Assembly: GCF_032854445.1 (NCBI RefSeq)
Contig: NC_088297.1
Coordinates: 11,680,163 to 11,744,162 of the forward strand
Length of the DNA stretch: 64,000 nucleotides
Direction of reading: 5' to 3'
Source of the DNA: Liolophura sinensis
Taxonomy: Eukaryota > Mollusca > Polyplacophora > Chitonida > Chitonidae
Part shown: positions 17,036-61,600 of the stretch, piece by piece
Layout: the number at the start of each line of letters is the position of its first letter
Numbering within the stretch: position 1 is the stretch's first letter
Notes under the pieces: generated by a model
Seen by the model: only the letters and a program-made list of their open reading frames with translations
What the model was told of the DNA's origin: nothing
Database searches by the model: none
Made by a program: the position numbers and the translations under genes

Positions 17036-18664
17036 AAGTACCAATCTGATGACAATCCCACAAAGTACAAATCTGATAACTATCTTACACAGTACCAATC
17101 TGATGACCATACTACACAGTACCGATCTGATGACCATACTACACAGTACCAATCTGATGACCATACAACACAGTGCCAATCTGATGACCATACAACACAG
17201 TACCGATCTGATGACCATACTACACAGTACCGATCTGATGACCATAGTACACAGTACCAATCTGATGACCATACTGCACAGTACCAATCTGATGACCATA
17301 CTACACAGTACCAATCTGATGACCATACTACACAGTACCAATCTGAAGACCATACTACACAGTACCGATCTGATGACCATACTACACAGTATCAATCTGA
17401 TGACCATACTGCACAGTACCATTCTGATGACCACACAATACCAACCTGATGACTAGACTACACAGTACCAATCTGATGACCATACTACACAGTACCAACC
17501 TGATGACTCTACAGTACCAATCTGATGATCATACTACACAGTACCAATCTGATGACCATACTACACAGTACCAACCTGATGACTATACAGTACCAACCTG
17601 ATGACCATACTACACAATACCAACCTGATGACTAGACTACACAGTACCGATCTGATGACCATAGTACACAGTACCAATCTGATGACCACACTACACAGTA
17701 CCAATCTGAAGACCATACTACACAGTACCGATCTGATGACCATACTACACAGTATCAATCTGATGACCATACTGCACAGTACCATTCGGATGACCACACA
17801 ATACCAACCTGATGACTAGACTACACAGTACCAATCTGATGACCATACTACACAGTACCAACCTGATGACTCTACAGTACCAATCTGATGATCATACTAC
17901 ACAGTACCAATCTGATGACCATACTACACAGTACCAATCTGATGACTATACAGTACCAACCTGATGACCATACTACAAAGTACCAATCTGATGACCATAC
18001 TACACAATACCAACCTGATGACTAGACTACACAGTACCAATCTGATGACCATACTACACAGTACCAACCTGATGACTCTACAGTACTAATCTGATGATCA
18101 TACTACACAGTACCAATCTGATGACCATACTACACAGTACCAACCTGATGACTATACAGTACCAACCTGATGACCATACTACAAAGTACCAATCTGATGA
18201 CCATACTACACAATACCAACCTGATGACTATACTACACAGTACCAATCTGATGACCATACTACACAATACCAACCTGATGACCATACTACACAGAACCAA
18301 TCTCATGACCATAGTACACAGTACCAATCTGATGACTCTACAGTACCAAACTGATGATCATACTACACAGTACCAATCTGATGATCATACTACACAGTAC
18401 CAACCTGATGACTATACAGTACCAACCTGATGATCATACTACACAGTACCAATCTGATGACCATACTACACAGTACCAACCTGATGACTATACAGTACCA
18501 ACCTGATGACCATACTACAAAGTACCAATCTGATGACCATACTACACAGTACCAACCTGATGACCATACTACACAGTACCAACCTGATGACCAAACTACA
18601 CAGTACTATCTCTGATGACCATACTGCACAGTACCAACCTGATGACCACACAGCACCAATCTGT
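17036..18664 (+). repeat. 27-bp minisatellite with higher-order structure, about 60 units
   Basis: Unit CCATACTACACAGTACCAAT with CTGATGA. Shortened units (CTCTACAGTACC) recur in order, giving ~363-bp (17340 versus 17703) and ~336-bp (18096 versus 18432) higher-order repeats. Because 27 is a multiple of three, frames are open on both strands; I do not consider them genes. Confidence 0.95.
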
Positions 18665-38743: not shown

Positions 38744-38985
38744 TGTGTCTTCTTGTAGCGAGCCCGTGGCGAGTCCATGCCGTCATAGTGTTGCCGCCAA
38801 TGAAGTATTATTCCAAAGACACCACACATGACATCCCACCCAGTTATATTGCATTGAAACTGGGCCAACTAGACCTATTTCCTTGCTCTAACCTCTCAGT
38901 GATGAACACCAAGCGAGTCAGCAACAAGCACCATTTTTAGTCTTTGGTATAAGGGTTGGATCCCGGGTCTCCCGGCTTTTATGCG
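38608..38985 (-). mobile_element. SINE family C with internal (GACA)n(CATA)n expansion
   Basis: The minus-orientation tail (ACGTTGTATTTAATAATTTT) is separated from the body by (GACA)n(CATA)n at 38684-38742. The body shows GGCGAGTCCATGCCGTCATA, ATGACATCCCACCCAGTTAT and CTTGCTCTAACCTCTCAGTG. Confidence 0.72.
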
Positions 38986-39273
38986 GATCCTCCATTGTTT
39001 GAAAAATGTTATAACATAAGTACGTGATATAAAAGACTAGCCGAGAGAAGGTCTAAGATGACGTTATATTAACATGTGCATTTGATCTCACGTTGGGCTT
39101 GACTTGAAATACAAGGAAGCTAAGATAACATACATAATAATTCTAACCATAATTTTTGGGGTTTATGCAAAATTATATATTGAAAATTATCGAAAAATTG
39201 GAAAAGATACAAATGTATTATTCCTCAAAAAATACTGGAATTAATATTATTCTACACCTGTTTTTACAGACAT

Positions 39274-39462
39274 TTACAGTCTACCGCTGATGACGTCATC
39301 AATCCATGCTGTATACGCAGACACCCTTGTGTACACGTCAGGTTTGTACCGTTGCTTTCCCTGCTCTTGCGCGGGACACGATCGTATTCCAAAACTGACC
39401 ACCCCGTGGACTTCCCAGTAGCCTTGTGGACTCAAACACATTAAGGGGCCGCCATTGTCTCC
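39274..39462 (-). CDS. S1 exon 4 (last): mutated catalytic-serine motif and C-terminus
   Basis: Acceptor TTATTTCAG, then a phase-0 exon of 62 codons plus TAA. It begins GDNGGPLMC where active S1 peptidases have GDSGGP; the codon is AAT, one transition from the serine codon AGT. It continues with VSFGIRSC (SWG in trypsin), KPDVYTRV (KPGVYTRV in trypsin, so Gly226 is Asp) and the terminal helix AWIDDVI. The oxyanion glycine and Asp194 remain. The fold looks intact while the nucleophile is missing. Confidence 0.92.
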
Positions 39463-42400
39463 CTGAAATAACAAAGTGCACAGCTTTGTTTCTGGGATCT
39501 CAGACATCTTGTTTTACACCCATTCACACATATATGTTTACTCTAAAATACTGATTTGTGAACATTAACAGATAAATGTTGTCTGTTGTCTGAACGATGC
39601 TAGAATGTATTCTGCTATTTAAACAAATTATTCTGTCAAATTTACCACACATTTTTCTATTTTTTGAACATTTATTAGAGTAGATGAATGACTGGTTTAA
39701 CGTCACATTCGTAACATTTCAGCCATATCCTGCAGGGACGATTGTATTAGAGTAACGGGTTATTACGTTGAATATGTCACTGTATTATTTTAAAATAAAA
39801 AACATAGATTCTAACATCACTCAAACAATAGACTTTCTAACAAAATGAATAGACTATTTTCTTTTAAAGCAACAACATTAAAGATCCATGACTGTATGCA
39901 TCAATTGTCTGGCAAGTATGTCTGTGGTGAAGTATAGTATTTTTACAAATACAAGATGCCCTGTTCTGCAAACCCATATACTGCAAACAGTGAATCCGGA
40001 TCTTAACGGAATATTGTACACCCCCCAACCAGCCTGGAGGATACGCGGATGGTCCGGCATCATAGGCAGATAGTGATCAATTCCCTACTGCAATCGTTCG
40101 ATATGCATCGTTCGCTTCAAATCACCGCTGCCACTTGACAAGCTTGACCTGTGAAGCTTGTGACACGCAGGTAGGTTTGTTTAGACTTAGTCTCATCTCT
40201 CGTGCGGAACTATTTAATCAGTATTCGTAAATCAAATTTTTTCAGCTTTTGATTAGAATCATGTTGTGCATATTTAAGATAAAGAGAATGCATATGTAAA
40301 TGAAGTGTTATCGGAAACACATGTTTAGACAGAGTGTTTGTGTTTTGTGACATCACTTCCTGCCGCCTGACCGTGATCGCAGTTACCTAGGCGTAGTCCA
40401 AGGATTTCTGCACAAAATTTGCTAGTGATGGCATAAAGGTAAAGTGATTGTAGACAGCCATGCATGCGCTGTAAGGAGTACGCGGTCTTATAGGTAAGCC
40501 GTAATGAGTAACTCTCTCAATTTCGTACTTTTTAAAGCCTATTGTCTGAGAAACCAATTTGACATTTAGAAAAAAGAAAGACTTCATTTTAATACCACTG
40601 CCTGTAACCTATAGTCTGTTTCTTTTAACTTGTCGATTATATTCGGCTGTCTGTAAAATCAGTCACACTCGCTACAAAACTGACTTTCACATTGATAACA
40701 CATAGGTAACGCTACACACTGATATGTTACGATATGTGTCATTAACGAAAGGTAATTTTAACAGTAAATACGGCAAAGAACTGAATACAGGCGACAAGTT
40801 GAAAGACACAAACTAAGCAGTACTCACAGAGCAAGGTTGGGGTAGGCCATATTCAAAACCGGAGCAAATTTTCCCTTCAAAAGCAAGTGACCACTCCTCT
40901 TCACAGTAAGTGTCATTCAACACTTTAGTGCGCATGTGCCGCAGGTTCACGGGATAGTTAGCTGGAGAAGTTCAACGAAAGGGAATAGTCAGAGAATGCA
41001 AACGAAGTTACGCTCATTAAACCGGAAAATTACCGTATAATTTCCTATATACAAAAAGCTCGACCTTTCACTAATCAGATCTCACATTTCAGAACAAGTT
41101 TAAACACTGTGACAAAGAAGCCAAAAAAACTGATGTAACGTTCACCAGACGGACAACTGAGAAATAAGTGCAAAATACATATATTTCATAATGATACTTA
41201 AATTTATCTTTTAAAAAATATTTTTAAAACAATTAAATATAGACACGTGGATGCAAAACTTCACCTGAATATATTTTAAATCATTTATACGGGGAACATT
41301 TATACCTGTGATTGTATTCCTGCTGGAGGGCTAAACAACCCTGAGGCCTGGTCCCTTTGTAATGTTTAAATTTTAATGATGTTAAATATGATGACAATAC
41401 TGTATTTTGATTAATTCCAGGCTAGTGACTTCTAAAAAAACTGCAATTAACATCACTGCATTTTTTTACGTAATTCTGATAAAGCCAAGGGGCTAGAGGG
41501 CGTGCAATTTGCTACTGTTTAAGCATATTATATTTAATCTAAACAGTTAGATTAAAAACACTAGCAATTTAACTGACAAGTATTTGTATTTCACAGTTTA
41601 TGTGTGACCATTAGCCAGCTATCACACTGTTGTCGCTGCTCTTATTTTTCACTCTACGCTGTACCTGATAATGAGGTCGCCAGCTCATGGTGGCCTTATC
41701 TATGGTCGTGCATGGGGAGGTGTGTCAGCAACTTGCAGATGGAACTTGCCCACCCTAAGGCTTGTGAATTACTATTGAATGTGTCACACCTGTATGCATT
41801 AATACTTACATGACCAGAATGGACGTGTATTTCCTAACCCAGAAACGTAGCACACGGACGACTCATTAACTCTCACCCCCTCCCTCGGGAGGCAAACAGG
41901 TTGCACATTTTCCCCCAGGTTAAGGGGTCTGTCCAGTTCCACTAAGGCTATATCCGCACTGAACACGGGAAGTGTTCTATAGTTCTTATGCAATACGATT
42001 CTCCGGATGTTTCGCGTCTGCAGCAAACTGCCTGGGTATTCTGGAGTGTTAGAGCCTACCCTGATGCTGGCGTACACCAGAGGAAACCTATAAGAGAATA
42101 TAGCATATCAACGATGTGACAGATATCTTTATCATTGGTTTGTTTGCTTGATTGTTGTTTAACGAAATACTCAAAGACATTTCACTCGTAACAAAATAAT
42201 TCGTTAAAATTTAACAAAGTTTGCTGTTTGAGTGATGCTACAGTGTATTTTGTTATTGCAGTAGATTATGTATTACACATAAATTCCATTAACTCAACAT
42301 CGTTGTGAGTTCATGCCCAGCTCGTGCTGGCTTCCTCTCCGGCTGTACGTGGGAGGGTCTGCCAGCAGCCTGCGGATGGTCGTGTGTTTCCCCCCGGGCT

Positions 42401-45400
42401 CCGTCCGGTTTCCTCCCACCATAATGCTGGCCGCCGTCGTATAAGTGAAATATTCTTGAGTAGGGCGTAAAACACCACTCAAATAAATAAATAAATATTA
42501 ATTCAACACAAAGATCGTATTAGACTAACAGGATATTATGTTGAGTGAGACTCAGCCTTATGTTATAATAAGAGAATACATCCTAGCATTATTCAGACAA
42601 CATACTTTCTGTTAAATGTAACAGATTAATTTGCTTTTAGTGCATCCACACCAAATTACTGACGAATTTCTCCACAATATTGTGATTTAGAGAAATTATT
42701 AACCGCTATAACTTAGCTATGGTTGTGAAAAACGCACCCTGAAAGGAATGCAGCAAATCAACGACCAGGCGCCTTGCATTTACTTTACCTAACTCCGCTT
42801 AAATCTTGGTATTGGAGGGACGTTACTTATTTAGAATTGGTGATCTTTTACAGAATTATTAGAATAAAACCCTAACTGAGGTAAATTGACAAGCGGCCGT
42901 TTTTCACCGGTTACGTGTGACCATTTTCCACTGTCGTCGGTGCCCTATTTTTTCTTTTTTTTTTTTGGCTGTTAATGCTGTAAGCCTTTAATCATATTGT
43001 GATACATGTTACGGTTCAGAATAATTATTCATCGATACACCTTATCAATGTTTGAAAAGATGCATGCATTATGCCATGAAGGAATGTAACGCACATCAAC
43101 GGTGAGAAGCCTTGTTACCAATATCATGATTAAGCACAATTGTCATACATATACGAGTCTGAATGTGGAAAAAAAAAGAAAACAAAAACAAAAAACAAAA
43201 ACGCATGTCATATGCCCGCACTCTCTCTTCTTGTGTGCTCTGAAGGTTTACTTATTTTTGGTTAGAGATTCCTTAAAACATACACGCAAAGGACTCCATT
43301 TTCAATTTTCATTCGCTGTTTTCCACCGAATGACATGGACAATACAGATGACCGACTGCATTTCATAAATCTAACGGTGTATTGACAGCGTATGACTGGA
43401 TGTATTCTTTGTTCATTGTTCATTCATATGACAACGGGCAATCATTATATATGCGTGTGTGTGTGTGTGTGTTCTTGTGGCAGGGCGAGTCCGTGCCGCC
43501 AATGAAGTATCACGCCTAAGACACCAGACATGACAGCCTTCCCAGTCAGAATATATGGACACCAGGCCTGTGTTTTAAGAGATGTAATGTCATCTATCCT
43601 TTCTCATGCTTGTGAACCAACTTCAGCCAGTTTCAAGAAAACGAAGGCGTAAACATTTGCCAACTAAGACACAGTGACTGTTGCCACTGATCTCCGCGCT
43701 ATATGTACTGAGTTAATTACCCGTCGTTAGTTGCTCGCTTCGGTGGCCTAATGGTTAGAGCGTCCGCCTCAAAGTTGGGAGACATAACAGAGACTCTTTA
43801 ATGGTACTTTTTGCTGTCTCGCCTGGCACTGCGAGGTTAGAGCAAGGAAACAGGACTGATTGGCCCAGTATCAGTATAACGTGACTGGGTGGGGTGTCAT
43901 GTCTAGTGTGTTTGGCATGAAACTTTGGCGGCATGAACCCGCCACGCCAGAAGAAGACACAGTATATCAGCATACACCTAAGGACTCCTCGTCGTCATAC
44001 GACTGCAATATTGTTAGATACGACGTAAAACCCGAAGCATATATACATATACATACCTGTCGTTGGCAAAGCAATGAGCCGCAGTGAGGATCCATCTGTC
44101 GTTAACAATGCTACCGCCACATATCATTTTGCCCAAGTTAATGACGTATGCCATCCAGGGCCACTCCCGCGGCTGTGACACGCTTCCGCCGATGATCTGT
44201 GAGCGCTGTGGTGAGACGGCACCTTTTACACCGCATCCTGCAAACAAAAGAATTAGTCTGATCCAGTATATCTTTTTTTCATTGGTGTTTTACGCCGTAC
44301 TCAATAATACTTCCCTTATACGACCGCGGGCAGCATGATGGTGGGATGAACCGGGAAGAGCCCAGGGAAAACCCACGACCATCCGCAGGTTGTTGACAGA
44401 CCTTCCGACGTACGACTGGAGACAAGGCGACATGAGCTGGACTTGAACTTACGGCGATGGCATTGGTGAGAGGCTTCTGGGTCATTGCGCAGAGCTGGTA
44501 AACGAACCACTATAGATTATCGACGCCTCCTGATCCAATAATATTCTATGGTCATGCACTTTGCATTGTTTTGATGTGATAGTATGTTAAATGTTTTCAC
44601 AACACAGCATTTCTGGTAATTATAAATTAGTAACGTCTAATAATTTGTAACAAACATGATTGCAATTTTTGTACCTAATTCTACTTGAGCCATGGCACTA
44701 TGGGGCGTGTACGCTGCTACTTTTTTAGGCATATACGACATTTACAATAAAACCCTAACTGAGGTAAATAGACATGAGGGCGTATTTCACCACTTGGAAG
44801 TATCACGCTATCATCACTGCTCTGGATTTACTTTCTATGCTGTAAATCTTTTACTATACAGATGGAGTATGGATACATGTAATCACGCAAAACATCGTAC
44901 TATCTCGCGTTACCTAGCAACATCTGACAAAAAGTTCTGGATACAACAACAACAACAAACACATATAAAGCCTTTTAGCTTGAACTTGATTATCTTCCAC
45001 TTGGCAGGCGCCGAGACATCTTCCTATTGCGTATAAAAACAATCGCACGAGGAGAAAAATGTGATAGAAGAACAGTTTCAATTTGAGCAAATCACACGCT
45101 AGTCAGAGTTCACTGATTTCATGTATCCATTGTTTTGCATTTCCAACTTTTTAAAAGTTCTGCCCACAGACAGCCGTCTTGAAGCCATGCTTGTAACGCC
45201 ATACGGACGGGATTCCACCAGATTCAGTGAAATTTTAAAATGGAAGTAAAATATGTTAACATATTTCCAGATACAGTTTCTAAAGGCTTTTCTACTGATG
45301 CCTAGTTCATTTTCATGCTTCCTTTCAGTTTAAAGGTTTTATCCAACGATCATGATTGGCTGATTTTATGTTACCTAAATTGCCGTTACGCTGCTTGCTG

Positions 45401-46581
45401 ATGTCGTTCTTCATCAAGGACGTAATGACCGCAAAACGGATCTTAAAATATCAATATGGTGACATTCAATAAACGCGGTAAACCGTCACTATATTCGACT
45501 AGTTTTATTTATTTACATGTTTGATTGTTGTTTTACGCCGTACTCAAGAATATTTCACTTATACGACGGCTGCCAGCTTTATGATGGGAGGAAACGGGGC
45601 AGAGCCCGGGGGAAACCCAAGACCATCCGCAGGTTGCTGGCACACCTTCCCACGTACGGCCGGAGAGGAAGCCAGCATGAGCTGGACTTCACAGCGACCG
45701 CATTGGTGAGAGGCTCCTGGGTCATTACGCTGTGCTAGCGCGGTAACAAACTGAGCCACGGAGCCACGAAAAAAAGGCTTTGCACACAACGAATCCATGA
45801 AAGGCACCCACTATAAAACTGGCGGTCCCTTTAGATAGATGGGTGGACCCATCCCTGATGTGACGTCAGAAAATGCCACCGTAATATCCAACGTTACACG
45901 TTATACGAAGTAAATTACTCGGTTAAAAAAAAATCTGAAAAAATGGATCCAACCATATTTATGGACAGTGTTTAATGGTATTTCATCTGACATATACTTC
46001 ACATTAGTGTTTTCTTTGCCTTTAAGTTAATCAATCATATTTGGCTAAAAATGATCATTTGTCTGCTGTATTGCCGGTGTCGTGCGGTGTGCCTCTGCCC
46101 TCCTTCCTTTCTACTATATATTTGTGATATTATAAAAACACCTTCTTTATTTAATGCTATTCTCGTTATTGTTATTTTTTAGTTCCGCACCCCATGACTA
46201 TATTTCACCTTTATGTTTCCTTAAAAATAAACAAATTCATATTACATTTAAAGGGATGAAACAGGCCTCTCGGAGTTCTCAAATCATGCAATATTGTAAA
46301 ACTCCAAGCTTTGTAAGGTGAAATAAATAAATTTAAAATATTAATCAATGAACCAGATAGCTAATGCTCTACTTTTTAAATTGATTTCAGTGAGGTTTGT
46401 TGGTATTGCATGTACACTGGGATGAGCAGTTCATGTTACACGTTGATAGTATAAAGTGCGGTGTACTGGGTGGAGGCCTTTCTGTTGTAATGCAGGAGAT
46501 ATCAGCATGGAGTGCAAAACTAGAACGGCTACGACAGCATTTTACAGTGAACCCTCATTATCGTGCTGAGACAGTTTTGAC

Positions 46582-46657
<76 letters not shown>

Positions 46658-49600
46658 TTACCTGATGGCTCACAGGAGAGCTTCAAGACTCGCTGACTTG
46701 GACAGGATTTTCTGCAATACATTAAGCACATGATCTGAACAGACTGTAATTATATAGAAATTCTGTCATTGTCTGATGCAGGACAACGGTGCAAGCAAAG
46801 ACAAGACGTGTGTAAGGCTCATATTAGAGACTGACCATGTTGGTGGCCTAACGGTTAGAACGTCCTCCTCGAAGTCGAGAGACCTATGATCAAACCCGGT
46901 TCGGGTCACACCAAAGGCTTAAAAAATGGTAATTGTTGTTGCCTCGCTTGTCGCTCAGCACTGGACTGTTAGAGGAAGGCTGGTTGGCCCGGTGTCAGTA
47001 TAATGTGACTGGGTGAGGTGTCATGTCTGGTGTTTTTGGAATGATACTTCGGTGGCGACAGCACTTCGACGGCATTGACTCGCCTTACCACGCGAAGACA
47101 CTATATATGTACACACACCTACTGACCCCTCGTCGTCATATGACTGATAAATTGTTAAGTACGACGTTACACCACAGGCATCCATTCAGTCATATTAGAT
47201 ACTCTCTCCTCCATTTGGGTCTAAGACTTACAACTGAAAATTACTTGTTCGCTTGTAATACCCGGTGCAAGGGATAAATATGTTACCAGTCTGCCACAAA
47301 TCGTCCATTCTAAAAGAAAAGTGATCCAGCTTTCTTCGTCAGGCTTGGGTCGAGGTGTCAGCTGTAAGGTAGATACGATCCATTTTGTTTCTACCGGACC
47401 TCAGAGGATAAGGGTAAGGTCACTCAGTCACGTGCAAGCATCATGTGATTGAATAATCGGGTATGTTATTGTTGTCAAACTACTGAGCGCCGCCATGTTG
47501 GGACTGCTTTGTGTGAATCACAGTCTTTGTCCTTCACTTATATACTGTTCACTTTTGTTCCATGTGCAATTCTAGGGTTATATTTTGAGTGAGTGAGTGA
47601 GTGCGTGCGTGCGTGGGGTTTAACGTCGTACTCAACAATTTTTCAGTCATATGACGACGAAGGAATCCTTAGGGTATATGTAATGTCCTCCTTGTTGCAG
47701 AACGGATTTCCACCGTTCTCTTATTTAGTGCTGCTTCACTGAGACGACTTACCGAAGGCAAGTAAGTCGCCCCCGCTGAGCCATTATACTGATACCTGTC
47801 AACCAGTCGTTGCACTATCCCCTTCATGCTGAACGCCAGGGAGGAAGTTACAACTTCCTCTTTTAAAGTCTTAGGTGTGACTCGACCCAGGATTGAATCC
47901 TGGATCTACCGCCCCCGAAGCGAGGGGTAGTTTGAAGCCAGGAGTATTGATTTATTGGCGGCTTTCAGAAATACTGCCCCATTTTTGTGGTGAATAATTC
48001 ATGGATCGTAATATCTTGGGCCGAATTGCCTTCGGCGCGAAATGTTGCTAACTGGACGACGAACTAAACAGTACTCCAACCACCAAGATAAAGGATATAC
48101 ATTTATACTCATCAAAAACACACAAACGCACGGAGAAATTTTATGTTGTTTTCTCTCAGTATTAAATAACGTGTTAACTCAACCATTAGGGTAAATATTC
48201 ATCCTCAACTGTGGCTTCGATTTCCAACAGATTTTCACATTTTACGACAATAATCCAGGGGCCTTGGCATGCCACTTGATACAGCAGGACTATTTTTATC
48301 TTTTGCGGCACTGAGTTCAAATTCGAAACTCCCCTATTGCAAACAGTTAAACGACGTAACAAGCCCTATCTAAACATAAACCAAAAAACATACCCGTAGA
48401 CTGATGATAACGGGATAGAGTTGAAATAATGCGAAAACCCCGCTTCTCACCGTGAATTTTCTTCAAAATTACATGACTGATTTTGAACACGGGTCTATCT
48501 GACGCCATGCATATTTCGCTCCAAAATTCGTGTCGCCTGACAAGAAATTCATGCCAGGAGTAATCAACTTACACGTTAAGGTGGGCAGTTAACTGGAGGG
48601 CGTCGTCAACACTCATTTCTCTGTATGTTAGAAACGTCCGTGATGAAGTGTCGTCTATAACAGCTTCGGCACTGACAAAATGATCTGAAAGGAAATGAAA
48701 CGTGGTAATGCATAGATCCAACACATTCGATGTCCCACCACCCCTTCTCTTGACATTTATTCTTGACATTACTTTTTATTCTATTCCCAATGAAAGCAAT
48801 TGTGACGTCAGAAAGATTGAACATTTGTAGCCATTATATGGGACATCCGGTTGACCTATTTACGAGAATACTGCTTATGATTGGTCAGTTGTGTGTTTTT
48901 GATTTACAGTTGACTTTGATCTCTTGTTCATCTAAAGTACTCGACAGAACTTATTCATTTTTTTTTTACACTGTTCGTTTTAATAACATTTTTTTCTCTC
49001 TCTTCATTACATAGGCATTCCGCTTCCATGGCCTTGTGGTGAGAGCATCAGCTGCGAAGGCCACAAACCTGGGATCAAACCCAAGGCTTTAAAAATGGTA
49101 CGTGTTGCTACCTCCTTTGGTGTTCAGCACTGAGAGGTTAGAAACAGAACTCTTTGGTCCAGCATCAGTTTGTGACTGGACAGCGTCTTGTCTGGTCTCT
49201 TTGGCCTGATACATGTACTCAGGTGGAGGCTGCACTTTTGCGGCATGGACTTGCCCTGCCACAAGACGCAGTATATATACGCACACCTAATGATTTGATT
49301 TATTTGATTGGTGTTTTACGCCGTACTCAAGAATATTTTACTTATACGACGGCAGCCAGCATTATGGTGAGAGGAAACGGGGAAGACACCAGGGGAAGCC
49401 TACGACAATCGGCAGGTTGCTGGCAGACCTTCCCACGTAAAGCACACCTAATGACTCTTCGTTGCCTTATGAATGAAAAATATGTGTCATGTATTCTGTT
49501 TGGTGTGAAACCACCATGTTGACATGGAACCCAAGGCGTCTCAGATGTAATAGTTGAATATTTGCTCTTTGGGTTACACGGGGAATTGAACTCGAAATCC

Positions 49601-52600
49601 GGCAGTCTAGCACTTGAGCCCCATAGCTATCGTAATGGTTATTAAAAGCAATGAAAACCTATCTCCGTTTCTACATGTGTACACCTACTATATATAATAA
49701 AATAAGGCGTAAATATTTCCTTACGACTGAGAGCAACCTGGTTTTTGGCGACTGGTACAATAACTGCTGGCTCAGGGGCTGCTTGGAGTTGAACATGGTC
49801 TACTTTTCTGCGACCCGAAGCATCTAGTCGTCTCCAGTTGCGTCGATCAACGCGTGCTTGCCCACAGTTGTCATAGTGATGCATGCATAGGCAAAGCTTC
49901 ACGTGACAATCATAATGGTAGTTCAGAGCTGACATTTGCCGCCAGTCGTGGTCGATCTACACGCACAGAAACTAATTCTGGTCAGACATCGCCAGATGCT
50001 CATGGGGTTTCCTCAAATTTTTCGACATTTTTCCCTGGATTTATATGGAAATGGCTCTGACAACAGACCATCTCACCATTGGCAAGTTTAAGTACAGACT
50101 CACCCGTGTGTCAAATAGTCACAAAGCAACTGCAGACTTCTTTCATCAGAAACAATGTTCTCTGCACACAGAGGGTAGGATGATCCGCTTTTGTTGAAGT
50201 AAACCGTGCCGTTGGTCTCCGTCCCAGAGTGAAAAGAACCTGGCGTGAGACAATGATAATAAGGAGAGTCAGCTCCGTCATGAGACGTCATAAAGATGTG
50301 CGATGATGTCATGAAGATGTGTGATGACGTCAACCGCTTAAGAGAACTTTCACTTTCACGGAGAGGCCTTCAGCGGCGATGGCTGTTTTCTCATATTAAA
50401 CTGAAAGTGTGAGCAATTTTATCATCTGTCTGAGTAAATGTATAAGTATGGCGCTCCTATTTTCGCTCCACGAAAATGCAGTGAATACTGTATCCAGTTT
50501 GATCATTTTTCTCAGTATTTAAGGCATTATTTGCTAGCAAAACATTAAGAAAGATTATGCCTACATAATGTGTCGATCTCTGTTCAACTACAACATTTGT
50601 TAGCATAAACGTCAAACTGGGCGAAACGTGTGTGCGAAACGTGTGGCCCACTTAACGTGTGGGCGAAACTCTCTACTGCGTACAAATACCTCACGGTTTT
50701 TTCTCCGGCCCTACGTGGGAAGGTCTTCCAGCAACCTGCGGATGGTGGTGGGTTTCCCCCGGGCTCTGCCCCGTTTCCTCCCACCATAATGCTGGCCGCC
50801 GTCGTATAAGTCAGATATTCTTGAGTACGTCGTAAAAGGCTAATGGGCCAAATAAATAAATCGTGATTTGCTTATTCAGCATTCGAAGGGTCATACCACA
50901 GTTCAACTCATCAGAACCATCTTCACAGTGGAACTGGCCGTCACAGATCTGATCCTCATCCAAACACACCTGGTTACGGCACGAAAGTACCTGGCCCGCT
51001 CCGCATGCTCCTGGCAACACGAACAGAAAAGTTGTCAATAGGTTTTCCTCAGGGCAAAACAAAACAGAAAACTATGAAATGGCGATGAATCCAAAATTCA
51101 CCTACAAATAACTCTGATATACTAAAATTTGTAATGAGCTGTACAGAAACTTACATGTGGAACACTTTCTTTCTAAACAGGTGTAATGTTAAGGGAGTGC
51201 GTTCAGGGACATGTAAGTGCTTTGTTTCTGCTAACTGACGGTGTGAATTTTGACTTCCAAGATAAGTAAGAGACGCGCAGACGAACAAGCCAGGATTTAA
51301 TACACTTGTGCTTTTGGTTTATTTATTTATTTATTTATCTGATTGGTGTTTTATGCCGTACTCAAGAGTATTTCACTTATACGACGGCGGCCAACATTAT
51401 GGTGGAAGGAAACTGGGCATGGCCAGGGGGAAACCCACGACCATCCGCAGGTTGCTGCAGGCCTTTCCACTTACGGCCGGACAGCTTTCGGTTTAAGCAA
51501 AATTGCTTTAAGCAAAAGTACTTTACTTTCGAAATGTGGAATGATTTTAATCAGTGTATGTCAAAAGTGAAATGTACACAGAAATGAAAAACTAGGTCGT
51601 ACAGGTAATTCCTGGACAGAGACATGGAGAGACTTGCTATCAGCTGGCTTAGTCATGGGCGATATATTTCATATCTTCACTCTTACTCTCCATTTCTTTA
51701 TTTCGCGTCGAATTCTGAAATTTGGTTTGACTACTGTTGTTTTAACTTCTGAGGTTGAGTGTGGTGTCTAACTTTTGTGGTTGACTATTGCGGTAAATTA
51801 TTAGGGGTTGAGTACTGTAGTTAATTTATGTGGCTGACTATAGTGGTTAACTATTGTGGCGACTGACTGCTGTGGTTAAGTTTTTGAGACTATGGTTAAC
51901 CTTTGCCGTTGATTATTATGGAATAGTTTTTTGTGGTTGACTATTGTGGTTACACAATTCCATTGCTTCAACAGCTCGAAGTAATTTATGTGATACGAAT
52001 CCTAGTACGTTTACCGTGTGTCACCTAAAGTTTAGTACTGTAATTTTGGTATGTAAATTGTACATTCAAAAACAGATGAAGGCCTTACAATGATGTTTTT
52101 CATGCAAACACAGATTTTCTGATAGGAAATTAACCAATTTTTTTTTCAGAAAAACACCCAATAAGGCAGATCTCTGAATCAGATCAAGCAAAATTTGTCA
52201 TTTGACAAAAATTCTGAACTTTAGATAAAATACAGTATATCTTCACATTGGAATAGATAATAAACTTACGACACTTCCATTCGTCGGACCCATCGTCGCA
52301 GTCCTGGTGGCCGTCACAGTAAAACTCTGAACGCACGCACTGTCCGCTGTCACAGGTAAACTCGTATACCGTGCAATCTGGTTAAATAAGAAATAGGAGT
52401 TTTCACGATCAGGTCAACAATTCCGTTTAAAGGAAAAGAGCGCCTCAAAATTAAAAAAATCCATCGTCGAATACAATTCTAAAGCATACATATCAAAAAG
52501 TACTTTTAGACTTATTTTTGAATTTGTAAAATGAAACATGCCTAAAACTCATGCACAGGGTGAATCAACGCGTTTTCTCTCTAGTAGGAATCCGGAAATA

Positions 52601-55600
52601 TAAAAGAAAGTCTTACTGCATTGTCGTTCGTCGCTGAAGTCACCGCAGTGGTCAACTCCGTCGCACAACTGACGGTTCCATATATAAATGCCATTATTAC
52701 ACCGGAAGCCGTCTGTTATATCTGAAAGAAAAAAAATGGTACCATTGCCGTTATATTTCTGAAACGTTATCTCTTGAGTAAGAGAACGCTAAGCCGAGTC
52801 GGCATTTTAGGAGTCCCTCGAGTACATGCAGATATAAACGAGACAGGGTGAGGGCTCTCGCAAAGTAACACACCTAACGGCTATACATGTACATCTCGCA
52901 TAGCCGGGTCCATTAGCCCAAAGGCAGCGATAGCAGCTACCATAAAATCACGTCTTTTAGCTGCCTTAGTTCGCGAGAGCCCCCAGTCTGTCTGGTCCAA
53001 ACGTGCGTGAACTTGCAAAACTCATGAAATGCCGACTCACCTTACCAACGCCACGCACTATGCGTGACCATTTACGCTTTATTCCAGGTTGTAATTGTTT
53101 TTATACAATCCAACGTACCGGTAATGACAGTATAACTTTGCGGTTAAAAGGCACCTGTCTTTCAATCGACAGGACGCACGAAGTGTCTGACCATTGATCG
53201 CTAGAGTACTGTTGCTCATTTTCGGACTTACAAATGAAATGAAATGCGGTCAAATTTATGGACTACACACGTGAGGTACTCATGACATCTTTCCTTTTTC
53301 TTTACATTTACTAAACGGTCACATTACTTAAGTAATCTTTTACTCGTTGGTAATAAGAGCTACTCCAATTTTAGAGGCTCTGGTTAGAGTGGGAAAAGCT
53401 TCTGGTGACGTCACAGCACACAAAATCGATGGGCTTTATCTTTCGTGAAATCCACCAAAGAAGTAAAATATTTGAGCGCGTTTAAAATCGTCAAACAATC
53501 TAAAACAAAAACTGTACTGCCTCACTTCCTACATGCGAGGAAGTTATCAGTTTTGTTAACCAACAACTCGTTCCTTGTGAATCAGTAGATGCTTTATTAA
53601 TGAAATGGATATATGAAGTCACATGACAGGTATTTACAGGTCACAATTACAGACACCCTTAGAATGTTATTTAGGCGAACATTGTGTGTGGTAATACAGT
53701 AAACCACCAGAATACTTTTAAAGTTGACCAGAACACATTCACTTTCGATATCAACAACAACATGCACCATGCACAACGATATGTCTCTCTCACACCAATC
53801 TACACAGTTTCATAATATGAAAATCACGGAAGTTTGTTCTATTTCGTTCATAGTCAACTCACACTATGGGAAGCTACACATGCAGGGGGAATCTGAAGGG
53901 ATTAAAGTCCGTGACACGAGGTTTGTGTCGTCTGTGTTCCGCGCTGAACATCCGATCCGGCTGCAAACTGCTTGCCGTACCAACTTTCCAGACACGGAAT
54001 ATACCAAGGAATAAACCGTGGCGTTACAAAAACTATACAGTATTTTGATGTATACATTTCAGATGTGCATAAGGATGAACGCGGTAGATTAAATCCGTAC
54101 TGTGTTTCTTATCGATTGACAGACAAGCGTCACTTTCTGGTTTTATTGTAATTGTGTTATTATGATGCGGTGGCATGGTTATATATATATTTTTTTTTGA
54201 CTGGTGTTTTACGCCGTACTCAAGAATATTTCACTTATACGACGGCGGCCAGCATTATGGTGGGCGGAAACCGGGCACAGCCCGGGGGAAACCACGACCA
54301 TCCGCAGGTTTATGCAAGACCTTCCCACATACGGCCGGAGAGGAAGCCAGGATGAGCTGGACTTGAACTCACATCGACCGCATTGGTGAGAGACTCCTGG
54401 GTCATTACGCTGCGCTAGCGCGCTAACCAGCTGAGCCACGGAGGCCCCGCATGGTTATATAGAAACGAAAGGAATGACCAAATTAACAATTAACAAACAT
54501 TATCCATAACATTAAAATAAAATATTTATTGTTTATTCGATTGGTGCTTTACGCCGTACTCAACAATTTTTCACTTAGACGACGGCGGACAGCGTTATGG
54601 TGAGAGGAAACCGGCAGAACCCGGGGGGGAACCCACAGGTTGTTAGCAGACTTTCCCACGTACAACACATAAATACTTACTACAGCTCAGTTCGTCACTC
54701 AAATCATCTTTCCTCCATCTAATGCAATCTAGATATCTATTGCATCTAGCTCTGCCGGGCAAACATTGTCCACTCTTTTCGCATACAAACCCGTCACATT
54801 CTGAAAATCATACCAAACGTCATAGCATCCGGATCAGCATCAAACCGCAATGAATTCTGCAGAAAATTTCATCAAAACAGTGCATAACTTTTCTCGTAAA
54901 TTTGCTGACCGAGATTACACATGATCACAGCTATATTTTAACGCATTTGTGAATGGTCAGATGCCAAGATGCGCACAAATTCAATCCGAATCCGCCCTAA
55001 GCAGTGAAAGTATTTAGTAAATTGTACTCAAACGTGTCAGTGTTATTAGATTATACCACACTTTTATAAGGTTTAATAATTTTTATTATTAAATAGTCGT
55101 TCTTCATAGACTGAGGCCTCTTGCACAAAGCGATTGTAGCCTAAGTAGGCTGTAACTACCATGGTAACATATGTTCTCAACATATGTTGCCCTGGTAATT
55201 ATAATCATCTTAGCCTACAATCGCTTGGAGCAAGCGACCACTGCTCGAGTCGTTGAGCGTATATTTTACTATGCGCAGCTGGCGTTACCTGTGCAGTTAA
55301 TCTCATCTGATCCGCCATTGCAATCATATATCCCATTACAAACTACAGTTTGGTTCACGCACAGACCGGAAGTGGCGCACTGGAACTGGTCTTTGCCGCA
55401 CTGCACTGTGAATCAGAAGGCAAGAAATTGTTAACTAGAAATAAAAAAGAAACAGCACAATTGTTCGTTGACGTCGGCTTACAGGTTCTTACAGGTGAAC
55501 TTCTTTGCCCTAAAATTTGCTGTCAGCCTCCCTGTGCTATTATGGAAAATTCCCTCGTGAAATTCATTCATTAAAACCATTAATATAAATCTTTATATAT

Positions 55601-58600
55601 AGCCCAGGTAAAGATGTGTGTAAACTACGTAATACAATTTCTCTTCCAAGAGACTATCACTCTGTGCTTGATTTTCCTAAAACAGATTTTATACCTGATG
55701 AAAATTAATCACAGGTTTTCAGTTAAAAGATGGCGGTTAGTTTCATGGGTGGAGGCAACCGCCGTGCTCAAGGTATATACCACCTACCTTTGGCAAGTTA
55801 CTGACAAACTGTCCCGCCACATAGAGATACGCACTCAATGTCGATGGGATATAAATGGTCTTCAAAAATTGTTTTAAACAAAAGGAGATGTCGGCTACTT
55901 TTAAAACTCGTCGTTGGATGCTCAGCAGGTCGTTGGATGTCTAGCAGCCCGTTCGATGTCTTGACAGGGTGGTGGACGAACGGATCGTCTTAACTTTCAG
56001 CCAATGCTTCTATGCGCATGACAAATAACTATACTTACAGCATTGGGGTCCCTCGTCAATACCCCCAGGGCATTCCCCCCACTCCGTCGCATACGTCAGT
56101 ACGCTTGATACAGACGCCTGAGTCGCCACAATGGTAATCGTCCTCACTGCAGGCTGGTTAGAGAAACACAATTAAACACTGATATACTGGCGTAAGCATG
56201 CATTAGGAGAAAAGAATCATACTTCCACGGAGGGTACAGGTGTTCTATCAAGGCGACGCCATTTGCTTCGTCGTGTTCAGTTATAGTTTTACTCATAATC
56301 TGAAATAACCGCATACATTCCTTTCGGGGCCTCTGTGGCCGAGGGGGTAGACGCCAGCGAGGCCGAATGACCCAGGAGCCTCTCCAACCGTGCGTCGGAA
56401 GGTCTGCCAGCAACCTGCGAATGATCGTGGCTTCCCGCGGGCTCTGCTCGGTTTCCTCTCAGTATAATGCTGGCCTCCGTCGTACAAGTGGAACATTCTT
56501 GAATACTGCATAAAACTCCGATCAAATAAATACATGAGTAAATAAACACATTCTTCCACAAATCTGTTGCTGACAAACACATATCGTGGATCTTGTCAAG
56601 TCTTACAACAAAAGCAAAGCACTACAACAAACCATGTAGTGTATCAGATCTCGTATTATCTCGTATTTAGTAAGACCACTCCGTGTTTCAAATTACTCCG
56701 CTTTCAAACCATTAATTTATTGATAACTTGCGCGCTCGCGGCCATGTTGGATCTGTAACAAAAGAATTTCGTGGTCCTCTGCACAGAGGGAAATATGATA
56801 TAAGAGACTGCAGCATAGAGAGTAAAACCAGAGCAGTGACGACAGTGTGATAACTGGCAAATTGTCACAGGGAACCCGTGAAATACGGCTACAGCATAGA
56901 CAGTAAAACCAGAGCAGTGACGACAGTGTGATAACTGGCAAATTGTCAAATTGGCCTCTGGTCAGTTTAGCTCAGTTAGGATTTTCTTTCTAACGGTTTA
57001 TGCAAATGCTTAAACTATATGGTCTTACACGCCATCTAGCACTATATGTAGGATTAAGTAAAAATATACATGCAGTGCTGTTAAATGCAAACTTCTTAGA
57101 CGTCACTCTATTAGGCGCCCTCGGGGCCTCCGTGGCTCAGTCGGTTAAAGCGCTAGCGCAGCGTAATGACCCAGGATTCTCTCACCAATGCGGTCGCTGT
57201 GAGTTCAAGTCCAGCTCATGATGGCTTCCTCTCCGGCCGTACGTGAGAAGGTCTTTCAGCAACCTGCGGATGGTCGTGGGTTTCCTCCGGGCTCTGCCCG
57301 GTTTCCATCCACCATAATGCTGGCCGCCGTCTTATAAGTGAAATATTCTTGAGTACGGCGTAAAACACCAATCAAAAAAAAAAAAAAAAAAAAAATTAGG
57401 CGCCCTCCATGAGTAAGACCATGGAATTCTTGTGGTAGAGGTCCAAGATGGCCGCAAGTCATGTATTGTATGGCTCTAAATCCTTTCCAGCATGACATAT
57501 TTGAATGTAAAGGAAAGATTTGAACTTACGACAGTCCATCTCGTCCGACAAGTCTCCACAGTCATCAACGGAATCACATCGTTTTAGAGAAGAAACACAG
57601 AAGCCATTGCCACACTTGAACTGGTAGTCTGGATGACAGGAAGCTGTGAACAAAGGGAACATGTGCGAATTTATTGCCGGGAAATACATACAAACTGCAA
57701 CCAAATATGACAGGTTTGATAGCAAGGCGCTGAGGGAACATGTGGAGAACTGAATGATGAAATTTCTTTCTTTATTTATTTGATTGGTGTTTTACGCCGT
57801 ACTCAAGAATATTTCACTTATACGACGGCGGCCAGCATTATATGGTGGGAGGAAACCGGGCAGCTGAATGATGAAAAACGAACAAAAACTACAATCAAAT
57901 ACGATGGGTTTGGTGACAAGAGCTTGTGAACTGAGGGACCATGTGGGAAATGAATGATGAGGGGGAAAGTAAAACTAGAGCCAAATATGATAGGCTTGGT
58001 AACAAGATACTGTGAACAGAGGGGACATCAGGGAAAAGTAGCTGATTAGAAGAGAGCAGGAATTACATCTGACATGATAGGGTTGGTGGCAAGATACAAC
58101 GAAAAGCAAAAAGGTATGGGAAATTGAATGATGAGAAAAGAACACAGTCTACAACCAAATATTAGAGGATTGGTGACCGGAAGCAGTGAACAGAGGGAAC
58201 ATGTTGAAAACTGGTTGATGGGAAACAAACACTAACTACAAACAAAATGACAGGTTTGGTAATGAATAATGAGAAAGGAACAAAAACTACAATCCAATAC
58301 GATGGGTCTGGTGAACGTGTGAACAGACGGAACGTATGGGAAACTGGCTGACGGGAAGGGAACACGAATTACATTTGAATAAGATTCGCTTATAAGGTAC
58401 AAAGAGGATATATGGGGAAGTGATTGATGATAAAGGAACTAAAATCGGATATAATAATAATAAAATGCACAAGAGACTGTAAACAACTAGAATAAAGGGG
58501 AAAGTAGCTTATGCCAAAGGAACAAGAACCCAGCCTCAAGGGACTGACAACAAAAACTACAAAAAAAAATATGATAGGGCTTGGTGGGAAGTGACTATGG

Positions 58601-61600
58601 ACAGTTGGAACATATGGGAAACTGTCCGATGACAAAGGAACATAAATCAACAACTAAATATGATAGGGCTTGGTGGGAAGTGACTACGGACAGTTGGAAC
58701 ATATGGGAAACGGTCCGATGACAAAGGAACATAAATCAACAACTAAATATGATAGGGCTTGGTGGGTGGGAAGTGACTATGGACAGTTGGAACATATGGG
58801 AAACTGCCCGATGACAAAGGAACATAAATCAACAACTAAATATGATAGGGCTTGGTGGGAAGTGACTATGGACAGTTGGAACATATGGGAAACTGTTCGA
58901 TGACAAAGGAACATAAATCAACAACTAAATATGATAGGGCTTGGTGGGAAGTGACTATGGACAGTTGGAACATATGGGAAACTGTCCGATGACAAAGGAA
59001 CATAAATCAACAACTAAATATGATAGGGCTTGGTGGGAAGTGACTATGGACAGTTGGAACATATGGGAAACTGTCCGATGACAAAGGAACATAAATCAAC
59101 AACTAAATATGATAGGCTAGTTTGCAACATCTTGTGCACAGATGGAACATGCGAGAAATTTATCTAATACAAAAAAATACAAATATGCATTCAGATATGT
59201 ACTAAGGATAATTTTTCTGATTTTTTCCTGATAAGAAAAGGCCGTGTTAAGCGGCCTCCAGCAGGTGACCATGTTTATATATGTATGACCATATATGGAA
59301 GGAGCCAAAGAGAACAAATTGCGCTGACGTCATGTACACTTTTGAAGCAAAATTTAGATATTGATCTTTTATCTAATACAAATGAATCCTGTATATGATG
59401 TTTACTGGACTATACCAGAAATATATAAATATAAGAGCGTGGCACTTCTCTATGTAAGTCTGGCTTTACTTTCCTTTAATTCCGTTTCTTTGAGACGTTT
59501 ACTGTAATTGTACAGAATCTGATCATACTCCCTACAGCGCATGTGTCGCTCTCTACCTTTCGCTTTACATCACTGCCGGCAATATCAGATTTGGTACAGA
59601 AATCTTGAAAAACGCCGAGGTCACCGGGGTCACGGTGATGAGGCAGGCAGTGATGTCAGAAAACACAAACAATCCGTCTCGTCTTTCGTCTCAAATAATA
59701 CTTTATACATGTGCATTCTCTTTATCTGAAGAATGTGCAAGATGATTCTAACCAACATCTAAAAAAAAATTGATGAAAATTGATTAAATAGTTCCGCGGG
59801 AGGACACAAGTGATGAGGATAATCCTGACCAAGCCTTTGCGAATCACAAATGCTCCAAATGTCACGCTTGTCTATCCGTGGCAGTGATGTTGAGCCAAAG
59901 GTAGAGAGCGACGCATGCACTGTAAGGTGTATAGTATCTGATACGTACTTGAACAGTCGACCGGTTCGTCCTCTCCCCCAATACAATCTTTGTGGTAATT
60001 GCAGTAAGACTCTATATGTAAGCACTTCTCCTCAGAATGACAGCTAAAGGTACCGCGGGGGCATGCTGACGAAACACAAAGAAAAACATATTATGATATA
60101 TATTAGTAGTGGGAAGAATGATTTATTGACTGATTTATGATTGAATTTTGTTTACAATATACTCAAGAATTTGTTTTTTTATACGATTGAGATCAGATTT
60201 ATGGGTGAAAGAGATCTAAATGGCTGCGGTATACCGCCTTCAGTAAGCTGGGCCTGCTGACAAACCTTCTCCAGGTTATGGCGTAGAGATATGCACACCA
60301 TACTGAGGGAAGACAAATGGCTTTCATTGACGTCATACTGTATATGTCAACCCACAGGAGAGCCAAAGTTCTCTGAGGTGATTTTATTGCTGTTGTAAAG
60401 TGGGTATATTTCCTTAACAAATGAAGATATAGACGGAGTCTTAAGGTCTAACATAATTACAAGGCAAGGGGACAAATTCTACATAACTGGAAGTAACATC
60501 AGCACATCAGAAATAAGATATGCCAAAGAAAATCGCCATTATTGCATTTTTCAAAACTGAAAACTTCCGCAGCTAAAACGGGCATTGCAGAAATGTCTGA
60601 AACTTAGGCATGTTGTAGACATCAAGATGAACTTTGAGTAAATTTACGAGTAAATCTTCACGTGACCTGGCAGCCATATTGGGCTGACACGAAAATAGTT
60701 TAGAGTGTCTTCAAATTTACCATAACGTAAGCCAAGTATCCATTTCTCGGTTCAGGCCGTCCACCGGTAAAACAATATCCAAAGCCAATTCCCAAAGACT
60801 GCTTTCATTAATACAACTTATCATGAACATTCCTTTTAAAATGTATACAAATTTAGCGAAAGATAGTTAAGTATAGGCCTAACAGTTAGCAGTTTCCAGT
60901 GATGTCAGTAAAACACACGGATGTGACGTTCGATGCGTTAAATCCTGTTGACCGCAACAATTCATGTTTAACCATTGAAAAAATTCATACTGGGATCAAA
61001 ACACAATATCGACACAAGATGAAGTACCGGTATCTCAGTTACGCTTTTTTGCACACCTCCTTACATGTATTCTATATTTTTGTAATACATAGGTTACTTC
61101 CCTTTTCAAGGAATTATCTCCCTTGACGGTAGGTATCTGTCTTTTATTTCAGTACTGAAGCAAATGGGACTATAGAAAACTTGGCCGTTTACCTTGTCAA
61201 TTTCACAATACAGAGAACAATTGCAATGATTCAAGAGTTAATTACTGTTGTTGCTCAAATTCCATACCTCCAAATATGAGCATTGGCTAATTGAACTGTT
61301 AACTACCAAGGGAGGCAAATCCTTGAAAAGGGAAGTAACCTATGAATTACGAAAAAAAAAACCGCCTAAACACAGCGCTGAATTTATACATACAACATCC
61401 TGGTACTTCATCTGTGGCAGCCGGGCAATCGGCCACTCCGTCACACCATTGGCTGCTGTCGACACATGATCCGTTAGCATTCGGGTCACCGCAAGAAAAC
61501 CGATATGTGCAGTCTGTGGAAAGTAATCAAGCCTTACATTTGACCTAATTCCATTGGCTTGATTGGTGCTTGATTGGTGCTTCGGGAGCGATAGAAGCAC

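Follow-up and report, generated by a model that had tools for sequence, protein, structure and literature searches.

A chiton trypsin-fold domain with Asn at position 195 downstream of a row of LDLa exons, probably an inactive relative of enteropeptidase or matriptase

Much work has been done on the serine protease homologues of insects, and an inactive S1 homologue carried on binding modules is a kind of protein already known in other animals. In the excerpt of PMC10036332, 43 of the 177 S1 genes of Ostrinia are classed as inactive homologues, and LDLa modules occur together with a catalytically inactive S1 domain in Nudel (its second domain), Drosophila SPH198 (TM-SEA-Fz-2LDLA-PLD) and Ostrinia OfuSPH21. 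Among active enzymes, matriptase-2 (TMPRSS6) and the type II transmembrane serine proteases carry LDLa modules followed by a Cys-containing linker and the S1 domain, and enteropeptidase (TMPRSS15) is described as a set of LDLa, MAM, SRCR and S1 modules (PMC8046417, in part). The replacement of Ser195 by Asn has itself been reported, in 5 of 15 viper serine protease homologues in the accessible text of PMC3123349. Among the matches listed in our literature searches there was no paper on a chiton serine protease homologue or on a mollusc S1 pseudoprotease, and no relevant case of S195N with serine protease; the string GDNGGP gave no literature match.

We analysed a window of 64,000 nucleotides from the chiton Liolophura sinensis (NC_088297.1, positions 11,680,163 to 11,744,162), in which an S1 gene lies on the minus strand. 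Splicing of four exons gave an open S1 frame of 259 aa that ends at TAA. Their junctions are GT-AG, with AG at the 5' side and GT at the 3' side wherever an intron comes next.

44057..44237, minus strand: S1 exon 1, with the linker Cys, activation site RSQ/IIGG and TAAHC (His57); preceding intron in phase 1
41810..42087, minus strand: S1 exon 2, with DIAL (Asp102), Cys122 and Cys136
40828..40961, minus strand: S1 exon 3, with Cys168, Cys182, Gln189 and Cys191
39274..39462, minus strand: S1 exon 4, with GDNGGP (Asn195 = AAT, 39454-39456), Asp226 and stop TAA

The spliced domain (residues as read: [32 protein letters not shown]) matches the Pfam Trypsin profile over its full length (1-220 of 220, E 4.4e-50), a match that is not due to chance and that places it in the S1 (chymotrypsin) fold family. 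I16, H57, D102 and D194 are all present. There are ten cysteines; we assign them to the five disulfides usual for S1 domains, one of which is the propeptide link 1-122. In an alignment to five solved S1 chains, 39 of the 46 columns identical among the homologues are kept in the chiton domain, and three of the seven changed columns are Leu/Val/Ile exchanges; identity in at least 4 of the 5 homologues was required per column, and the Ala at column 195 of the TMPRSS6 chain, taken as an engineered change, was dropped from the count. These data support the view, put forward in a first-pass annotation from TAAHC, DIAL and the usual cysteines, that the domain keeps what the fold needs.

The same alignment bore out the substitutions that the annotation had read at the functional sites. 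The Ser195 column holds Asn, the Asp189 column Gln and the Gly226 column Asp, and the zymogen P1 residue is Gln. The domain thus retains His57 and Asp102 of the catalytic triad of active S1 peptidases with Asn at 195, and in place of the Asp189 of trypsin specificity it has Gln, with Asp at 226; as an S1 fold in which one triad residue is replaced, it falls by sequence among the S1 non-peptidase homologues (SPH, pseudoproteases). The need for Ser195 in Ser-His catalysis is established chemistry of the family, and as read from the codon Asn195 should stop that catalysis. An unseen exon supplying GDSGGP, which would have undone this reading, was sought by regex (GD/GE.GGP/A and TAAHC/TAGHC, both strands, three frames each). 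The window returned one GD.GGP-type and one TAAHC-type motif, and so no second unsplit exon there supplies Ser195; this search would not see a motif interrupted by an intron. The annotation had also counted three functional sites as changed independently, which does not hold. Active proteases are known in which the pocket charge has shifted from 189 to 226: in the consulted portion of PMC7914634, trypsin D189G/G226D keeps basic specificity and NSP4 has Asp226, and fire-ant chymotrypsin is a further case (PMC2930297, in part). P1 Gln is listed for honey-bee SP22, SP27 and SP43, which are classed as proteases (PMC1761132, in part). We therefore rejected Gln189 and P1 Gln as independent signs of a dead enzyme, and only the change at Ser195 is a clear catalytic loss.

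Upstream of the S1 exons lies a row of LDLa exons whose phases are compatible with S1 exon 1 and, farther upstream at the window edge, the end of a MAM-like exon.

50897..51010, minus strand: LDLa10, 6 Cys; phase 1 end; joins S1 exon 1 as ELNC-G-CGVKG, a junction suggested by phase
52270..52377, minus strand: LDLa9, 6 Cys
52617..52721, minus strand: LDLa8, with just 4 Cys, the first and the third both being absent
54681..54800, minus strand: LDLa7, 6 Cys with an insertion; under the Pfam cut-off (23.3 vs 24.1 bits)
55289..55405, minus strand: LDLa6, 6 Cys
56039..56153, minus strand: LDLa5, 115 nt; frameshifted as assembled by a one-base shift at a six-G run, with an in-frame TGA
57530..57643, minus strand: LDLa4, 6 Cys
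59949..60065, minus strand: LDLa3, 6 Cys
61394..61513, minus strand: LDLa2, 6 Cys
62998..63123, minus strand: LDLa1, 6 Cys
63926..64000, minus strand: end of a MAM-like exon (63926-64246, running past the window); Pfam MAM E 0.13, below cut-off and weak alone

The ten LDLa modules of the annotation hold up in nine cases: the nine that keep their frame were scanned against Pfam LDLa, and each of them matches the profile, eight over the curated cut-off. The fifth is frameshifted as assembled. Phase suggests that LDLa10 is spliced to S1 exon 1. The MAM domain claimed from the piece at the window edge was weak there, but a clear MAM exon (Pfam E 7e-13) lies ~10 kb beyond, and LDLa, SRCR and MAM exons go on upstream of the window on the same strand, so that LDLa, MAM, SRCR and S1 are all present on one strand. 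We infer that these upstream exons belong to the same gene as the S1 domain. No SEA or CUB was found among the Pfam matches on the minus strand of window positions 44001-64000 and two further upstream stretches (L009, L010), and these two stretches of the upstream 30 kb gave no Trypsin match. There were no Rfam matches or tRNA genes in the window. In a DNA search of the animal's own genome, with 40 of 22306 candidates scored, the non-self matches fell in intron repeats, so that this search bears little on further copies of the gene. Paralogous exons do occur, the nearest at C3:11264624-11268978 and others at C3:11798508, 11848902 and 11859107.

We compared this arrangement with the described proteins. 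LDLa10 plus S1 found matriptase-2 as best solved match (E 1.3e-43, aligned over LDLa, linker and S1), with enteropeptidase third. When S1 was searched without LDLa10, pancreatic elastase came first and TMPRSS6 second, which leaves the subfamily unsettled. The module order appears to resemble that of matriptase-2 and enteropeptidase: an LDLa row, a Cys linker and a C-terminal S1 domain, given the splice junction suggested by phase. The S1 domains of matriptase-2 and the chiton are 34.2% identical (79/231), but the chiton protein differs in Asn195, Gln189, Asp226 and P1 Gln, and the stretch searched, which stops short of the gene's start, showed neither a CUB domain nor a transmembrane segment. 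Enteropeptidase shares LDLa, MAM, SRCR and S1, if the chiton modules form one gene as we suppose; it is an active protease with a transmembrane anchor that also carries SEA and CUB domains, neither of them seen in the chiton stretches scanned, whereas the chiton LDLa modules are expanded tenfold and lie directly before S1. As far as the cited excerpts go, the insect LDLa proteins have Frizzled/SEA or two S1 domains, in place of MAM and SRCR; Nudel has its two S1 domains between LDLa blocks, whereas the chiton window holds a single TAAHC and a single GD.GGP. The viper homologues are described as single-domain secreted venom proteins with His57 mostly changed too, whereas the chiton domain keeps His57. 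The annotation had not recognised its module combination, but LDLa, MAM, SRCR and S1 together are the set described for enteropeptidase, and LDLa with an inactive S1 domain is found in insects.

The likeliest reading of these sequences is a retained pseudoprotease. We give a probability of roughly one half to the S1 domain forming the non-peptidase C-terminus of a large extracellular mosaic protein similar in kind to matriptase and enteropeptidase, probably retained for binding; the chiton protein would then probably be related to these two enzymes while lacking their activity. The non-peptidase reading draws on the Trypsin match, the open four-exon frame, the invariant columns, the matriptase-2 match and the viper and insect precedents. 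The LDLa5 frameshift and the first place of pancreatic elastase for S1 alone count against this account. Asn195 would leave no useful proteolysis, and the domain may have been kept since it still binds something. The LDLa/SRCR/MAM stem might attach to ligands or surfaces. The S1 domain, which still has His57, Asp102, Asp194 and an acidic pocket at Asp226, might hold on to a partner protease, a substrate or an inhibitor but not cleave it; its role would be that of a cofactor, a decoy or an adhesion module, as with the insect serine protease homologues. A more specific version, which we hold only tentatively, is a chiton-lineage pseudoprotease under selection, in which S1 has traded catalysis for binding on its ten-LDLa/MAM/SRCR stem and the Asp226 pocket still takes up basic or polar side chains without cutting; the protein would work at the surface of cells or tissues as a protease decoy or cofactor.

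The main rival is recent inactivation: an LDLa-S1 protease that was active until lately would have been lost in this lineage or allele and would keep no function, Asn195 and the frameshift in LDLa5 being the first lesions. We regard it as a plausible but less probable account. Asn is one transition from Ser (AAT/AGT), decayed LDLa-like fragments lie at 57978-58148, and a segment just upstream is repeated ~9.8 kb apart at 95% identity, so that the locus is changing and a redundant gene is plausible. An mRNA that includes LDLa5 would not yield S1 from that start, and the frameshift weakens the annotation's case against decay; its open four-exon frame stands, but an open frame alone cannot date a loss. 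However, the S1 frame, splice sites, cysteines and invariant columns are intact to the extent given above. With 14x HiFi coverage, the LDLa5 shift in its six-G run could reflect an error in the consensus; skipping of the exon is another possibility, as its neighbours are all 3n and phase 1-1.

It is unlikely that AAT is an assembly error or minor allele and that the typical gene encodes Ser195. Substitution errors are uncommon in HiFi consensus, and at 1.24% heterozygosity a polymorphism at any one base is rare. This explanation also leaves Gln189 and Asp226 unaccounted for, though both fit an active enzyme of altered specificity. What lends it some room is the assembled animal itself, with 1.24% heterozygosity and 14x HiFi coverage according to the accessible part of PMC11068029. 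Switching the enzyme on in some transcripts by A-to-I RNA editing of AAT to a Ser codon is highly improbable. By the genetic code, an A-to-I change at the middle position can in principle recode Asn as Ser, but none of the five inverted-repeat pairs in 38900-41000 includes codon 195; no editing duplex is evident, and we rejected editing as unsupported.

Were the S1 domain not conserved across chitons, the locus would be an ordinary example of protease gene loss. If it is conserved, lophotrochozoans would gain an example of an inactive S1 domain carried on an LDLa/MAM/SRCR stem, which would offer a ready test of a pocket kept for binding once catalysis is lost.

We observed that the trypsin-fold (S1) domain is encoded by four minus-strand exons, which splice into a 259-residue open frame with a stop, in agreement with the four open S1 exons of the first-pass annotation.

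44057-44237, minus strand, S1 exon 1, AG/GT at intron borders
41810-42087, minus strand, S1 exon 2, AG/GT at intron borders
40828-40961, minus strand, S1 exon 3, AG/GT at intron borders
39274-39462, minus strand, S1 exon 4, AG at intron border, stop at end

The proposed fold-keeping core was likewise borne out. The domain covers the whole Pfam Trypsin profile (E 4.4e-50), is 32 to 37% identical to five solved S1 chains and contains His57, Asp102, Asp194, the Ile16 terminus and ten cysteines. At 46 alignment columns, four or more of these five chains agree; the domain keeps 39 of these residues and at the other seven has Val for Leu, Ile for Leu, Leu for Val, Leu for Trp141, Lys for Met, Ser for Ala183 and Asn for Ser195 (numbers 141, 183 and 195 follow our own mapping). 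An unseen exon supplying GDSGGP had been named as a possible refutation, and a search of the 64-kb window (contig C3, 11680163-11744162) for motifs uninterrupted by an intron found no second GD.GGP or TAAHC. One S1 intron holds, at ~42190-42650, a member of an interspersed repeat family with a motif near TTTTACGCCGTACTCAA; a further copy lies in loci L001-L008, and the matches listed by our genome search include many copies at 75-94% identity. Elsewhere, 17037-18648 is a 27-base tandem repeat of ~62 copies, open in several frames over part of its length.

Asn195 takes away the nucleophile, and by the family's established chemistry ordinary catalysis should therefore be abolished. The pocket residues are Gln189 and Asp226, with RSQ/IIGG as the activation site. 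Among viper serine protease homologues, 5 of 15 are reported to carry Asn195 naturally (PMC3123349). Asp226 with a non-Asp residue at 189 is a known relocation of pocket charge: trypsin D189G/G226D is described as remaining specific for basic residues, and NSP4 (both PMC7914634) and fire-ant chymotrypsin (PMC2930297) carry Asp226. Gln189 itself is absent from these three precedents. P1 Gln is recorded for honey-bee SP22, SP43 and one of the two domains of SP27, all classed as proteases (PMC1761132), and P1 residues outside the usual classes for 21 of 177 Ostrinia genes (PMC10036332). The pocket-charge precedents and P1 Gln proteases therefore reduce the three independent losses first proposed to one clear loss, Asn195.

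Upstream of S1, on the same strand, we observed ten LDLa exons (LDLa1 to LDLa10, 5' to 3'). Nine have lengths divisible by three, begin and end in phase 1, and match Pfam LDLa at E 7.6e-5 or better, eight of them above the curated cut-off. Of the ten modules counted originally, nine are in frame; LDLa5 (56039-56153, minus strand, 115 nt) is, as assembled, frameshifted by one base at a six-G run and contains an internal stop. The shift may reflect an error in the consensus, an exon that is skipped or a genuine lesion; the flanking LDLa exons are symmetrical, so skipping would preserve the frame. In LDLa8 (52617-52721, minus strand), cysteines 1 and 3 are both absent and four remain. The same pair is missing, with four left, from an LDLa at 67452-67628 (extended coordinates, past the window edge), and human MSPL is described as having one LDLa without its N-terminal half (PMC8046417). 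Decayed-looking LDLa-like fragments with some cysteines and no complete module lie beside LDLa4 (57978-58148, minus strand). LDLa10 ends in the phase required by S1 exon 1, and the predicted junction reads ELNC-G-CGVKG.

A MAM-like exon (63926-64246; Pfam E 0.13, below cut-off) straddles the window edge. Beyond it, on the minus strand, Pfam scans of two upstream stretches (L009 and L010) gave SRCR (E 2.9e-15), LDLa (E 4.4e-6) and MAM (E 7e-13), plus other SRCR and LDLa matches too weak to reach the cut-off; a third stretch, L011, was covered by motif search alone. Part of this region occurs twice, ~9.8 kb apart, and the two copies share 95% identity along 3.1 kb (3132 aligned bases); either a recent duplication or an artefact of assembly could account for this. 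The copies (70097-73186 and 79881-83005, extended coordinates; L009, L010) hold exons of the same module kinds. We infer that S1, the LDLa row and the upstream MAM, SRCR and LDLa exons form one gene.

Against solved structures, S1 alone ranked pancreatic elastase (1bru) first, then TMPRSS6 and enteropeptidase-1. When LDLa10 and S1 were joined, TMPRSS6 came first (E 1.3e-43; alignment covering LDLa, linker and S1) and enteropeptidase 7wqx third among solved matches. Enteropeptidase is described as carrying SEA, LDLa, CUB, MAM, CUB, LDLa and SRCR ahead of its protease (PMC8046417). Searching the chiton's own genome (609,464,459 bases, 632 contigs) gave 56 matches to the S1 protein; the nearest paralogous exon set lies ~450 kb off on the same contig (52% for exon 4, 42% for exon 1, 33% for exon 2), and more paralogous exons lie 75 to 140 kb away on the other side of the locus. 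The published chiton assembly (609,495,693 bases, 632 scaffolds, 13 pseudomolecules) is reported with 14x HiFi coverage and 1.24% heterozygosity (PMC11068029), its species name, Liolophura japonica, later being corrected to L. sinensis (PMC12441733).

We judge the domain to be a real S1 homologue, probably without catalytic activity, on a matriptase/enteropeptidase-like stem. We give its retention for a binding role a probability of about 0.5; recent loss of a protease is a serious but weaker contender. That the Asn195 codon is an error or minor allele seems improbable. RNA editing of this codon is very unlikely, as none of the five inverted-repeat pairs detected across 38900-41000 covers it.

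Insect LDLa proteins with inactive S1 domains include Nudel, SPH198 and OfuSPH21, and S1 genes classed as homologues without activity are given as 43 of 177 in Ostrinia and 67 of 257 in Drosophila (67 being our sum of 18 and 49; all PMC10036332). The interest of the chiton combination hinges on orthologue data. In conclusion, an inactive S1 domain on such a stem is of a kind already known, and the exact combination described here for a chiton seems to be new within the literature searched.
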